A stretch of DNA of 64,000 bases from Nostoc carneum NIES-2107 (GTDB lineage: Bacteria > Cyanobacteriota > Cyanobacteriia > Cyanobacteriales > Nostocaceae). Positions 42,391 to 49,240 of this stretch are shown here, piece after piece. How positions within the stretch are numbered: position 1 is the stretch's first letter; each line of letters opens with the position of its first letter. The DNA is taken from NCBI GenBank assembly GCA_002368155.1, contig AP018180.1, forward strand, positions 3,288,719 to 3,352,718. Reading direction: 5' to 3'. The position numbers and the translations under genes were made by a program. Below the pieces are notes generated by a model. That model saw only the letters and a list, made by a program, of their open reading frames with translations. It had not been told where the DNA came from and ran no database searches.

Positions 42391-42850
42391 AGCTTGTATC
42401 GCGATTGTGATTGAGGAGTTTGTGCAACCATAAAATAACATCAATCTCGCAATCGAGTATGTACCCTTAGGACAAACTATTCAACCAAAAAAGTTAATTA
42501 ACCACCAACTTTTAAAATCGCAAACATTATTGTGATTTGGTAGTATTTAAGTCTCAAGGTAGTTTCCCTTACCCTTTCCAATACTGCTCGGTTAAGGATT
42601 TTAAACTCTTAATTTGGTTTGGGGAAAAGGTGAAAGGGTAAGGGTTAAAGGTTTTTTCTTGCCCCTTTTCCCCTTCCCCTTTTGCCCTTAACCGACAAGT
42701 ATTGTTACCCTTTCCCCTTTTACCCTTCCCCTTTTACCCGAAAATTATTGTGGGCTGTGCTGGCTATAAACAGGTACGGGTATTGCTATAGGTTTTTGTC
42801 ATAAACCCGAACTTACCAACTGATAAATTTGCACTAATCTATTAATTAGG
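42391..42850. other. Intergenic region with MITE
   Basis: No gene. The centre is occupied by the 126-bp element at 42579-42704. C-rich TTACCC/TTTCCCC runs continue to about 42740, which may have been the target site. Confidence 0.5.
42579..42704 (+). mobile_element. 126-bp MITE, copy A, with 10-bp target duplication
   Basis: Ends CAATACTGCTCGGTTAAGG and (complement of right end) CAATACTTGTCGGTTAAGG: 19-bp inverted repeats with two mismatches. Flanked on both sides by TTACCCTTTC (42569-42578 and 42705-42714). Copy B at 48945 is the same length and differs at about two bases. No coding capacity. Confidence 0.9.
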
Positions 42851-43513: not shown

Positions 43514-43735
43514 TGGGTAATTGGTAATTGGTAATCGGTAATTGGTAATCGGTAATTGGTGTTTGTTATTTTTCCCCTTATCCCCAGTCCCCAGTCCCCA
43601 GTCCCCCATCCCCAGTCCCCAGTCCCCAATCCCCAATCCCCAATCCCCAGTCCCCAGTCCCCAGTCCCCAGTCCCCAGTCCCCCATCCCCAGTCCCCAGT
43701 CCCCAATCCCCAGTCCCCAGTCCCCAACCCCTAAC
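43514..43735. repeat. Large heptanucleotide block (GGTAATT, then CCCCAGT/CCCCAAT)
   Basis: GGTAATTGGTAATC units (43516-43562) are followed by about 22 CCCCAGT/CCCCAAT/CCCCATC units (43580-43733), ending at the stop codon of the GCS2 gene. Several overlapping frames through it give Pro/Ser- or Gly/Trp-rich peptides and are artefacts. Confidence 0.92.
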
Positions 43736-45080
43736 GCCTCACGGAATTAGCAACCTCAACTTCCCGATCTAAAGCTGCTAAGGGGTGCTGAGTATCGAGT
43801 CGTAATACCTGTGCTTCTAATTTGTCACAGCACTCTCTTACTAAACGCAAACCGTCATCTCGAGAAAGTTTGGCGGTGGTAGGTGTAAATTCTGCCAAAA
43901 TATCCGCTTCTATACTGTGATAATGGTCTAGTTGCGATCGCAATTTTGTTAAATACTTTGTACCTTCGCCGCCATCTGTAATGGCAAATTGCAATACAGA
44001 ATCGAGGTAAGCTTGAACTTTCGGGTGTTTAACTCCTTCTGTCGCTGCAGCATATAATAGTTCGCCATTTAAATATTCAAAATCTGGCACCCATAGGTAA
44101 TCTCCGCTGACTTCAAAGGTATATAATTCCTTAGCTGGTCTAACTGTTAAGTGCTGGCTTCTGACTCGATGGGCAGCTTTTTCTAAAAGTGCAATTACAG
44201 CAATAATGACTGATGGATAGTTGCTGTCAATACATCTAATTTCTACAGTACCCAGTTTATTGAGCCTGATGGGATTCCATGCTGATTTAAATAAGCTTCC
44301 TCCCGCCTTTAAAAACTGCTGGCGTTCGATTCCGGCTTTATCTAAGGCTTGCAGCCAAGCATAATAGCGGGCAAATTGCTGCTCAACTAAGCTTTCCACG
44401 TTCTCAGCATAAGGCATCAATCCGCCGACTGGCTGTAAATAAGTATATACACCATCCCAACCAAAGATTTCGCTACCACGATAACGAATTGTGTGAGCAG
44501 CTAACCCAATCGCCTCACCCTCATAAAAAGGACAAGCACGTCCCAAAGAAATTAATGCTGAGTCAAAAGCTGTAGCCAAGTTGTAAATATTAAGTAGTTC
44601 CTCTCGCTCTGTTGCTGTAGAGTCATAGGATACAGCCACACGTGAATCGATTACCCCAGGCGCTACTTCTAAATGCAGGTGTACACCCGTACATTTCCCC
44701 GCGTGCAAAAAGCGATCGTAGCCTACTGTCCGCGCTTGGATATGATAATTCGGATGGTCGCGCATCACTGGCATAATATGCAAAGGGTAGCTAGACAGAG
44801 GATAAAGCCGCAAACCCATTTGTCGCGCTACAACTAACGCCAATTTGAGATTTTTTAAATACTCTGTAGCTAGCTCTGAGCCAGAGTAAGCTGGTGGAGT
44901 ATTAATTTCTACAATACTTTTGACGAACTCTGGCACAAAGTAATTAGGGTTTAAGCCTTGAGTTTCCGCCATCAAATGACAACCCTGCAAAAACTCATCG
45001 CCACGATTGCTGAGTTCGCCTGTCTCATCTACTAGGAAAAACTCTTGCTCAAGACCCATGCGACGTTGTAATACATCCAT
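43731..45080 (-). CDS. GCS2-family glutamate-cysteine ligase-like (carboxylate-amine ligase)
   Basis: 449 residues. GCS2/YbdK-type motifs: [67 protein letters not shown]-dependent ligation of an amine to a glutamyl carboxylate is the family reaction. Whether this one makes gamma-glutamylcysteine is unknown. Starts at ATG 45080; its stop abuts the heptamer block. Confidence 0.85.
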
Positions 45081-45450
45081 AATCCCAAATATTTTGTTAA
45101 TGAGGTTACGGGTCTTGCCAACGTTTGGAACTTCTTGAGAGAAAGGTAACTGTTCAGTTCAGCAGTTGAGCGATCGCATTAACTCCAAAACTGGAAGACC
45201 CTATCAGTAAATATCTCAATACCCAACAAGCTAATTGCTACCCGTGGGTAGTTGTGATTGATCAAAAAATAATGCTCAAATTCTGAACAAGCTTTATTGT
45301 CCTATATCAGCCTCCGCCGATATCACTTTCGCAACAGAGCTACAAAGTCGGGTAAAAGAAGATTTGGGGAAAGGTAAAGGGTTAAGGGTAAAAGGGTTCT
45401 GGCTTTCTCGTGAACTGATCAATATTACATCAAGGCGTTGGGCACAAATG
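45081..45450. other. Intergenic region upstream of GCS2 gene
   Basis: No gene recognised. A purine-rich run GGGGAAAGGTAAAGGGTTAA lies at about 45365. It leads into the 63-bp tandem repeats. Confidence 0.4.
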
Positions 45451-45670
45451 AGTTGATGTTTTCTATAAATGAGAACTCGTTCATAGTAAAGCTCAACTCG
45501 TTTTTCATAAATAAGTTGATGTTTTCTATAAACAAGAGCTTGTTTATAATCAAGGTCAACTAATTTTTTATAAATAAGTCGATGTTTTCTATAAATGAGA
45601 GCTTGTTTATAATTAAGGTCAACTCGTTTTTTATAAATGAGTTGAGGTTTACTATCAATGAGAACTCGTT
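45451..45670 (+). repeat. 63-bp tandem repeats (3 full plus partial), decayed coding repeat
   Basis: Units start AGTTGATGTTTTCTATAAA at 45451, 45514 and 45577, with a partial fourth at 45640: spacing is exactly 63 bp. The period is a multiple of three and one frame encodes a 21-residue unit (MFSINENSFIVKLNSFFINK). The frame is broken by TAA in unit 2, where the others have TCG. After the array it runs on to 45797. Possibly the remains of a repeat protein gene. Confidence 0.7.
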
Positions 45671-45817
45671 AATCAAAAACCTGAAGGTGTTAACTAAAAA
45701 TGCCTTCAGGCTCGCTACAAATGGGTTAGTTTTAGCATTGACAATGATGCGTTACGCTGTCGCTAACGCATCCTACTTTTGGACTCTTGACCCTTGACCT
45801 TTTGACATCCTGACAAA

Positions 45818-47518: not shown

Positions 47519-47557
47519 TTTATTTACAAAAAAAGCATAATCAATGTAGCTATAGCT

Positions 47558-47760
47558 AAATACAGTTCAGTTAAGAAAATTAATTGATGACAAAACCAAA
47601 AAACTAGTTACTCAACAAAAAAACAGAACAATAATTTTGGAGGGGGTTTGGGGGACGCAACCGTCACCCAATCGGGGGTTTGGGGGAGAATCCCCCAATT
47701 CTTCTGGCTTCTTTAATAACTAACAAATCAATCGCTAATGAGCTTAACCCAAGGGTATTG
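47558..47760 (+). mobile_element. 203-bp MITE, complete copy, with 10-bp target duplication
   Basis: Ends AAATACAGTTCAGTTAAG and (complement) CAATACCCTTGGGTTAAG. Flanked by AGCTATAGCT on both sides (47548-47557 and 47761-47770). Interior G-rich core GGAGGGGGTTTGGGGGACG. Truncated relatives at 749 and 4429. It sits between the thioesterase and tautomerase genes and may have split a former operon. Termini resemble those of the 126-bp family. Confidence 0.85.
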
Positions 47761-47816
47761 AGCTATAGCTATGCCGTACAATCCACAGATAGAATGAGCT
47801 ACAAAATTTGCAATGC

Positions 47817-48846: not shown

Positions 48847-48944
48847 TTAAGTAATTTATCATGGTCAAATCTCAAGGGTCAACAGTCAAGAGTCAAAAGT
48901 TATGATTCTTTCCCGTAGGCTGCTCGTATATATGGACTCTTACC

Positions 48945-49070
48945 CAATACTGCTCGGTTAAGGATTTTAAACTCTTAATTTGGTTTGGGGAAAAGGTTAA
49001 AGGGTAAGGGTTCAAGGTTTTTTCTTGCCCCTTTTCCCCTTCCCCTTTTGCCCTTAACCGACAAGTATTG
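48945..49070 (+). mobile_element. 126-bp MITE, copy B, with 10-bp target duplication
   Basis: Nearly identical to copy A at 42579 and in the same orientation. GACTCTTACC flanks it on both sides (48935-48944 and 49071-49080), proving insertion. No coding capacity. Confidence 0.9.
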
Positions 49071-49240
49071 GACTCTTACCTAACAGATTTCTATGTGTTA
49101 AAAAAGTAGAGTCAGTCTAAAAGATTACCGCACCGTACAAATTATTAGATTATTGCTGACGTACTCTTAAAGTTATTTTTCGTCGGTCAACTAAGTCTTG
49201 AGACTGTCAGGGTATGTTTAATTAGAAAGTGTAGGATAAC

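Follow-up and report, generated by a model that had tools for sequence, protein, structure and literature searches.

Two copies of a 126-bp MITE between divergent genes

Within the window, that is the whole 64,000-nucleotide stretch of Nostoc carneum NIES-2107 DNA analysed here (C1:3288719-3352718), two copies of a 126-bp MITE lie on the plus strand in gaps between divergent genes, each 5' of both of its neighbours. According to Pfam, the neighbours of copy 1 (42579..42704) encode a histidine phosphatase and an Hsp20 protein, and those of copy 2 (48945..49070) a TetR regulator and a methyltransferase. The copies are equal at 124 of 126 bases, copy 2 carrying two substitutions relative to copy 1; no coding capacity was seen, and ORFs of at least 60 aa are absent from the element. 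In copy 1, the left terminal inverted repeat CAATACTGCTCGGTTAAGG (42579..42597, plus strand) and the right one, CAATACTTGTCGGTTAAGG (42686..42704, read on the minus strand), match at 17 of 19 positions (89%) and thus form an imperfect inverted repeat; in copy 2, they occupy 48945..48963 (plus) and 49052..49070 (minus). Each copy is bracketed by a perfect 10-bp target duplication that differs from that of the other, namely TTACCCTTTC at 42569..42578 and 42705..42714 for copy 1, and GACTCTTACC at 48935..48944 and 49071..49080 for copy 2, the flanks of copy 1 being pyrimidine-rich and similar to the MITE interior. An earlier note on this DNA had described the two near-identical copies, their 19-bp inverted ends and the differing perfect direct repeats, and all three descriptions hold, with the proviso that the inverted repeat is imperfect. 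With up to three mismatches allowed, four occurrences of the 19-base end were counted in the window, where 0.01 would be expected.

The window contains further repeats. A second MITE family is represented by a 203-bp element at 47558-47760 with ends AAATACAGTTCAGTTAAG / CAATACCCTTGGGTTAAG, of which the left resembles a 1.5-kb IS4 type, and with a perfect 10-bp duplication, AGCTATAGCT, at 47548-47557 and 47761-47770; a decayed copy lies near 742-935. At 17 places examined in the genome, this family shows a perfect duplication in seven cases, 9/10 in one, 8/10 or fewer in seven and no clean end pair in two, ends and duplication having been optimised together without a control. Two arrays were also seen, a tandem one of 7- and 14-base units (TCCCCAG...) at 43581-43760 and a 63-bp direct repeat array, also an imperfect palindrome, at 45446-45697.

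Copies and target duplications across the genome

A search of the whole genome (9.36 Mb in 4 contigs), as the earlier note had proposed, returned at least 41 BLAST matches to the 126-bp sequence, a lower bound with 40 of 273 first-look candidates scored. Genome-wide, the MITE ends occur 265 times at up to three mismatches, compared to nine for a reversed control pattern, and 28 elements are complete with both ends exact (spacer 60-90), versus none in the control. Among the 41 copies, the duplication is perfect in 26, matches at 9/10 bases in eight and at 8/10 in two, while four copies have 7/10 or fewer and one lacks clean ends. A duplication of at least 9/10 is therefore found in 34 of 41 copies but in 0 of 1560 mispaired controls, which were built from flanks of the same copies under the same ±3 optimisation and reached 8/10 just once.

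A wider related set comprises elements of 103-170 bp. Its 39 loci yielded 25 extra elements, which were picked by their duplication (at least 8/10), are thus biased and were left out of the chance test, together with 17 further ends lacking a partner. The 149-bp (L313, L322) and 170-bp forms (L316, L325, L328, L330) consist of the MITE plus an internal insert of 23 or 44 bp, respectively, containing GCGTAGCGTCTCCGCAGGAG, which differs by one base in L313 (GCATAGCG); no such form lies in the window. We take the insert to resemble the small dispersed repeats of Nostoc. Separately, a subfamily (L040, L049, L054, L315, L323) has its left end changed to CAATACTACAAGGGATAGC, or CAGTACTATAAGGGATAGC in L049, with duplications of 8-10/10, as if the inner part of the left end were perhaps not strictly required.

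Empty sites in related genomes

Same-genus genomes were aligned across the region, and alignments longer than 40 bases were considered. At copy 2, both G081, the genome matched to Tolypothrix sp. PCC 7712, and G082 lack the element and have a single GACTCTTACC. G081 is also empty at copy 1: a lone pyrimidine-rich stretch agrees with the duplication at 9/10 positions, and the 40 bases left of copy 1 are contiguous there with the right flank. In G003 and G081, the gene to the left of copy 1 aligns at a large distance from this right flank, and the two are on different contigs in the draft genomes G082 and G083. Other genomes are uninformative for an empty site at copy 2, G003 and G083 having about 500 bp extra at this position, and G056 and G084 aligning only further out. 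By eye, these roughly 500 extra bases in the TetR/methyltransferase gap (L223 in G003, L229 in G083), absent from the window, look like an acetyltransferase gene.

The empty sites, which the earlier note had suggested seeking in related strains, demonstrate transposition of the window copies. That note had called the duplications direct proof of transposition; the transposition stands, but it is the empty sites and not the duplications alone that establish it. Since both G081 sites are empty with one target copy each, both insertions occurred in the N. carneum lineage after its split from G081, the less likely alternative being a traceless loss in G081.

Autonomous IS4-type elements with the same ends

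Partner IS elements were found through the domain PF13006, which forms the N-terminal part of IS4-type transposases and is matched in 32 of 80 genomes sampled from the family, with MITE-type ends around many of the matches. In two elements, L154 (2150 bp) and L155 (2194 bp), both ends read CAATACTGCTCGGTTAAGG, the 10-bp duplication is perfect and an IS4 transposase of 466-468 aa is encoded. The sequence CAATACTGCTCGGTTAAG at both ends together with a perfect 10-bp duplication is common to L154, L155, L269 and L273; a 10-bp duplication was also seen in L276, and a perfect one in L293, where one end reads CAATACTGTTCGG. Overall, cognate IS elements with the left-end sequence CAATACTGCTCGGTTAAGG at both ends belong to other genera and measure 2150-2213 bp. 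At two positions (TG for GC, one position for GT), the right end of the MITE departs from these IS ends. The three cognate transposases examined all combine PF13006 and PF01609 and possess the YREK motif, and both that were scanned with NF033592 (IS4 family) exceed its cut-off. Furthermore, CAATACTGCTCGGTTAAGG fits every fixed position of the IS4-subgroup end consensus, -AATR--------WTW----. IS4-type mobilisation, as proposed in the earlier note, thus gains support from autonomous elements outside this genome.

These elements are themselves bracketed by duplications of the same length in several instances. In G018, one identical 2194-bp sequence is present in 11 copies, six with perfect, differing 10-bp duplications and five without any, and in G067 three of four copies have perfect ones. 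In the named collections, 17 loci are two-ended with a spacing of 2.15-2.21 kb (14 on genome contigs, three on plasmids), and the 10-bp duplication is present in eight and absent in nine; five of the eight are copies in Calothrix sp. PCC 7716 with identical flanks, reflecting one insertion in a repeated segment. Missing duplications may result from recombination between copies. A second, related IS type of about 1.5 kb ends in CAATACGGTTCAGTTAAG, CAATACGGTTCGGTTAAG or CAATACTTTTCGGTTAAG.

We also asked whether internal deletion of a sampled IS could have given rise to the MITE, and found no support for this: compared with 15 IS interiors, the MITE interior scored no better than shuffles against 14 (the score was reached by 30 to 100 of 100 shuffles), and against one IS by 2 of 100. 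Because its interior is unlike those of the IS elements, the MITE is tied to them solely by ends and duplication length.

Search for a partner transposase in the N. carneum genome

Our survey of this genome covered the families PF01609 (DDE_Tnp_1) and PF13006. The former has 71 matches at E ≤ 0.001 in several classes, none of them within the window, and the latter has none in the entire genome, so that the IS4 remnants which the earlier note had placed in the window could not be recovered. Queried with the cognate transposase, the genome gave a best match of E 0.009 at 21% identity, located on another contig than the window. Of the 71 PF01609 loci, 43 were examined (30 plus 13; most of the other 28 repeat the same size classes), and at none of them is the transposase enclosed by MITE-like ends (up to three mismatches) at the spacing of an IS. 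This survey revealed no IS4-subgroup transposase in the genome; an IS with the same termini, for which the earlier note had advised a search, was likewise not found here and is present in other genomes. As a separate observation, a transposase locus of about 1.45 kb (L098 at C1:7758200 and L099 at C1:1345200) is bordered by CAATACTGTAGCCAAA, and repeats of this sequence also lie close together beyond the end of the locus.

The likeliest alternative is that another transposase still encoded in this genome, outside the IS4 subgroup, cross-mobilises the MITE. The 71 PF01609 matches of several classes offer candidates, and the L098/L099 class has borders, CAATACTGTAGCCAAA, whose first seven bases are common to the MITE; however, none of the 43 loci has the appropriate pair of ends, and CAATACTGTAGCC follows the MITE end no further than position 7-8 and is also clustered beyond the gene. 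We consider this alternative improbable. Less room is left for the notion that the copies are old, fixed repeats, immobile since the genus diverged. Five of the 41 copies, with 7/10 or fewer duplication bases or without clean ends, would suit such an age, but duplications are perfect in 26 of 41, the window copies differ at just two of 126 positions, and both window sites are empty in a genome of the same genus, which contradicts this idea outright for these two copies.

The MITE can fold end to end as a single long hairpin (z -4.1 as DNA, and -4.6 and -5.5 for the two strands as RNA). Promoter and terminator scans performed at about chance level, with three promoter-like sites near copy 2, outside the MITE, versus 0.9 expected. 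That the repeat is retained as a regulatory hairpin, a terminator or RNA element whose mobility is incidental, is very unlikely: it could draw on the strong folding potential and on the position of both window copies 5' of two divergent genes, but inverted ends by themselves add to a hairpin, the Rfam search returned nothing at the gathering score, and there were neither terminator-like sites in the scanned regions nor promoter-like sites within either window copy.

We therefore favour, with a probability of roughly 0.87, that the MITE is a non-autonomous DNA transposon mobilised in trans by an IS4-family transposase of the IS4 subgroup with a 10-bp duplication. What is observed in its support are the multiple copies, the ends, the 10-bp duplications, the empty sites and the autonomous IS with the same ends and duplication length. 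An IS4-subgroup transposase would recognise the MITE ends in trans and presumably move the element by cut and paste, a staggered cut of the target producing the 10-bp duplication; this lineage would once have possessed the transposase and then lost it.

Orphan state and plasmids

Of 80 genomes, 47 contain the exact end motif CAATACTNNTCGGTTAAGG, and they represent 36 of 56 genera; the control gave no match. Eleven genomes have at least 10 exact ends, and an intact transposase (at least 70% identity) was found in three of them (G018, G059 and G067), in which a sizeable share of the ends belongs to the IS copies. Within the genus, the MITE is carried by seven of eight genomes, that of N. carneum included, and an intact cognate transposase was found in one of eight, G081, as three copies of 466 aa at 70% identity. 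These copies are located on a 176,706-bp contig identical over 5001 bases to the plasmid NZ_CP063788.1 of Tolypothrix sp. PCC 7712. On this plasmid, the IS of 70% identity has ends reading CAATACTGTTCGG, a close variant, and not CAATACTGCTCGG, and its two two-ended copies both lack the 10-bp duplication, as does the single two-ended copy on a plasmid of Tolypothrix sp. PCC 7601. In the latter strain, a related MITE copy (82% identity) and a cognate IS reside on one plasmid, and in total the MITE is present in 14 plasmid records from Nostoc, Tolypothrix, Microchaete and Aulosira.

Other genomes retain pieces. An 82-aa transposase piece at 70% identity is kept in G083, and pieces at 65% (G003) and 50% identity (G084) lie near ends of the 1.5-kb IS types. 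The 56% gene of G080 belongs to a 1474-bp element with CAATACTTTTCGGTTAAG ends and a perfect duplication, and its matching part contains an in-frame stop. On the simplest interpretation, the N. carneum lineage possessed the transposase, perhaps plasmid-borne, while the copies spread, and has since lost it. A plasmid like that of Tolypothrix sp. PCC 7712 would be a plausible source of the transposase, a suggestion to which we give slightly less than even odds.

A small divergent gene in the partner IS

Cognate IS elements differ from the 1.5-kb type in a small additional gene with a product of about 126 aa, part or all of which was detected by motif search in 17 of 17 two-ended cognate loci, and in none of five two-ended loci of the 1.5-kb type. 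Examples are L273:2022-2399 on the minus strand, L267, L269 and others, as well as the plasmid loci L352-L362. The gene is under purifying selection, with a median dN/dS of 0.08 (27 of 36 pairs with finite dS, nine sequences). Its product is modelled by AlphaFold as a helix, three strands and a helix (pLDDT 90), for which Foldseek gave no match at E ≤ 0.001. Likewise, comparison with PHROGs, PADLOC, Pfam, NCBIfam and PDB sequences revealed nothing convincing, the best weak matches being a PADLOC model (E 0.01 over 18 residues) and a PHROG (E 0.09). Pieces of the accessory gene also lie beside the same end in a 425-bp two-ended element of G076, without a duplication, and next to the same end in G019 and G012, where one end only was seen.

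The small gene is present in 30 of 80 genomes at E ≤ 1e-5 and was not found in that of N. carneum. Eight of the 30 loci were inspected, chosen as seemingly outside a cognate IS, and in all six loci scanned from these a neighbour matches a transposase profile, namely IS4_3 (Tn5-like), ISKra4 or NF041680/IS701-like; three of the six matches fall below the curated cut-off, the transposase gene there being split or partial. On plasmids, the gene lies beside a transposase or a fragment of one in 10 of 11 records (11 of 39 sampled), four of these neighbours being recognised by annotation alone and two being only fragments with weak matches; in the remaining record, it lies beside a DUF6399 protein. 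With respect to orientation, the gene is divergent from the transposase in the IS4-subgroup elements, and follows it on the same strand in the ISKra4 and Tn5-like cases seen.

In 2008, according to the available text of PMC2266710, passenger genes were not yet known in IS families or IS4 subgroups other than IS231. Among the later publications listed on passenger genes in IS4 and ISKra4 elements, judged by title and the start of the abstract and with most subscription journals outside the search, none dealt with the small gene. Since one of its neighbours is annotated as ISMic1, the gene may lie inside an already named IS. Speculatively, the small protein might be an accessory factor shared by unrelated transposases (IS4 subgroup, Tn5-like IS4, ISKra4 and IS701-like), and orphan MITEs might move only when a plasmid brings both transposase and factor; we regard this combined proposal as unlikely, at well below even odds.

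Relation to known elements

The 126-bp element falls in the MITE size class (about 70-300 bp, non-coding) and has terminal inverted repeats and a target duplication; a partner IS, which a MITE does not require, was not found in the same genome. The classification of its partners follows Table 1 of PMC2266710, as far as available, in which the IS4 subgroup is given the ends -AATR--------WTW----, a duplication of 10-13 bp and a typical size of 1400-1650 bp. Compared with this description, the autonomous relatives share the end consensus, the 10-bp duplication and a YREK transposase, but they are larger (2150-2213 bp, where 1400-1650 is a typical and not a strict range) and contain the extra divergent gene, whereas the MITE itself codes for nothing. 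The IS231 subgroup is described in the same text by ends of the form CAT-------AA--TAA--- and by passenger genes. It is similar in that its members, also of the IS4 family, can carry extra DNA between the transposase and one end; however, the ends of IS231 start with CAT and those of the MITE and IS described here with CAAT, which places them outside this subgroup.

IS4-family elements without a transposase have a precedent in MIC231, the IS231 cassettes. Among cyanobacterial MITEs, Nezha (Zhou et al. 2008) was proposed to be mobilised by ISNpu3-like elements (the available text of PMC3049150), and the 126-bp MITE, compared to it by description only, may belong to the Nezha family or a sister of it. 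For the end sequences themselves, a search of literature text gave matches which, among those listed, were unrelated by title. In Anabaena sp. 90, the available text of PMC3542288 reports 147 MITEs without an IS sharing their ends. By description, this resembles our case in that many MITEs occur in a Nostocales genome devoid of an end-sharing IS (PMC3542288, available text), but its authors considered an autonomous mechanism, whereas here the partner IS lies outside the genome.

The 126-bp element is thus a new MITE of a known IS4 type, and the notable parts are its orphan state and the small gene of its partners. MITEs for which the host genome offers no partner are still puzzling, and for this one the partner type was found outside the genome, so that it becomes testable whether visiting plasmids drive orphan MITEs. 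In addition, the small gene offers a simple candidate for a cofactor or regulator of transposition that could be portable.
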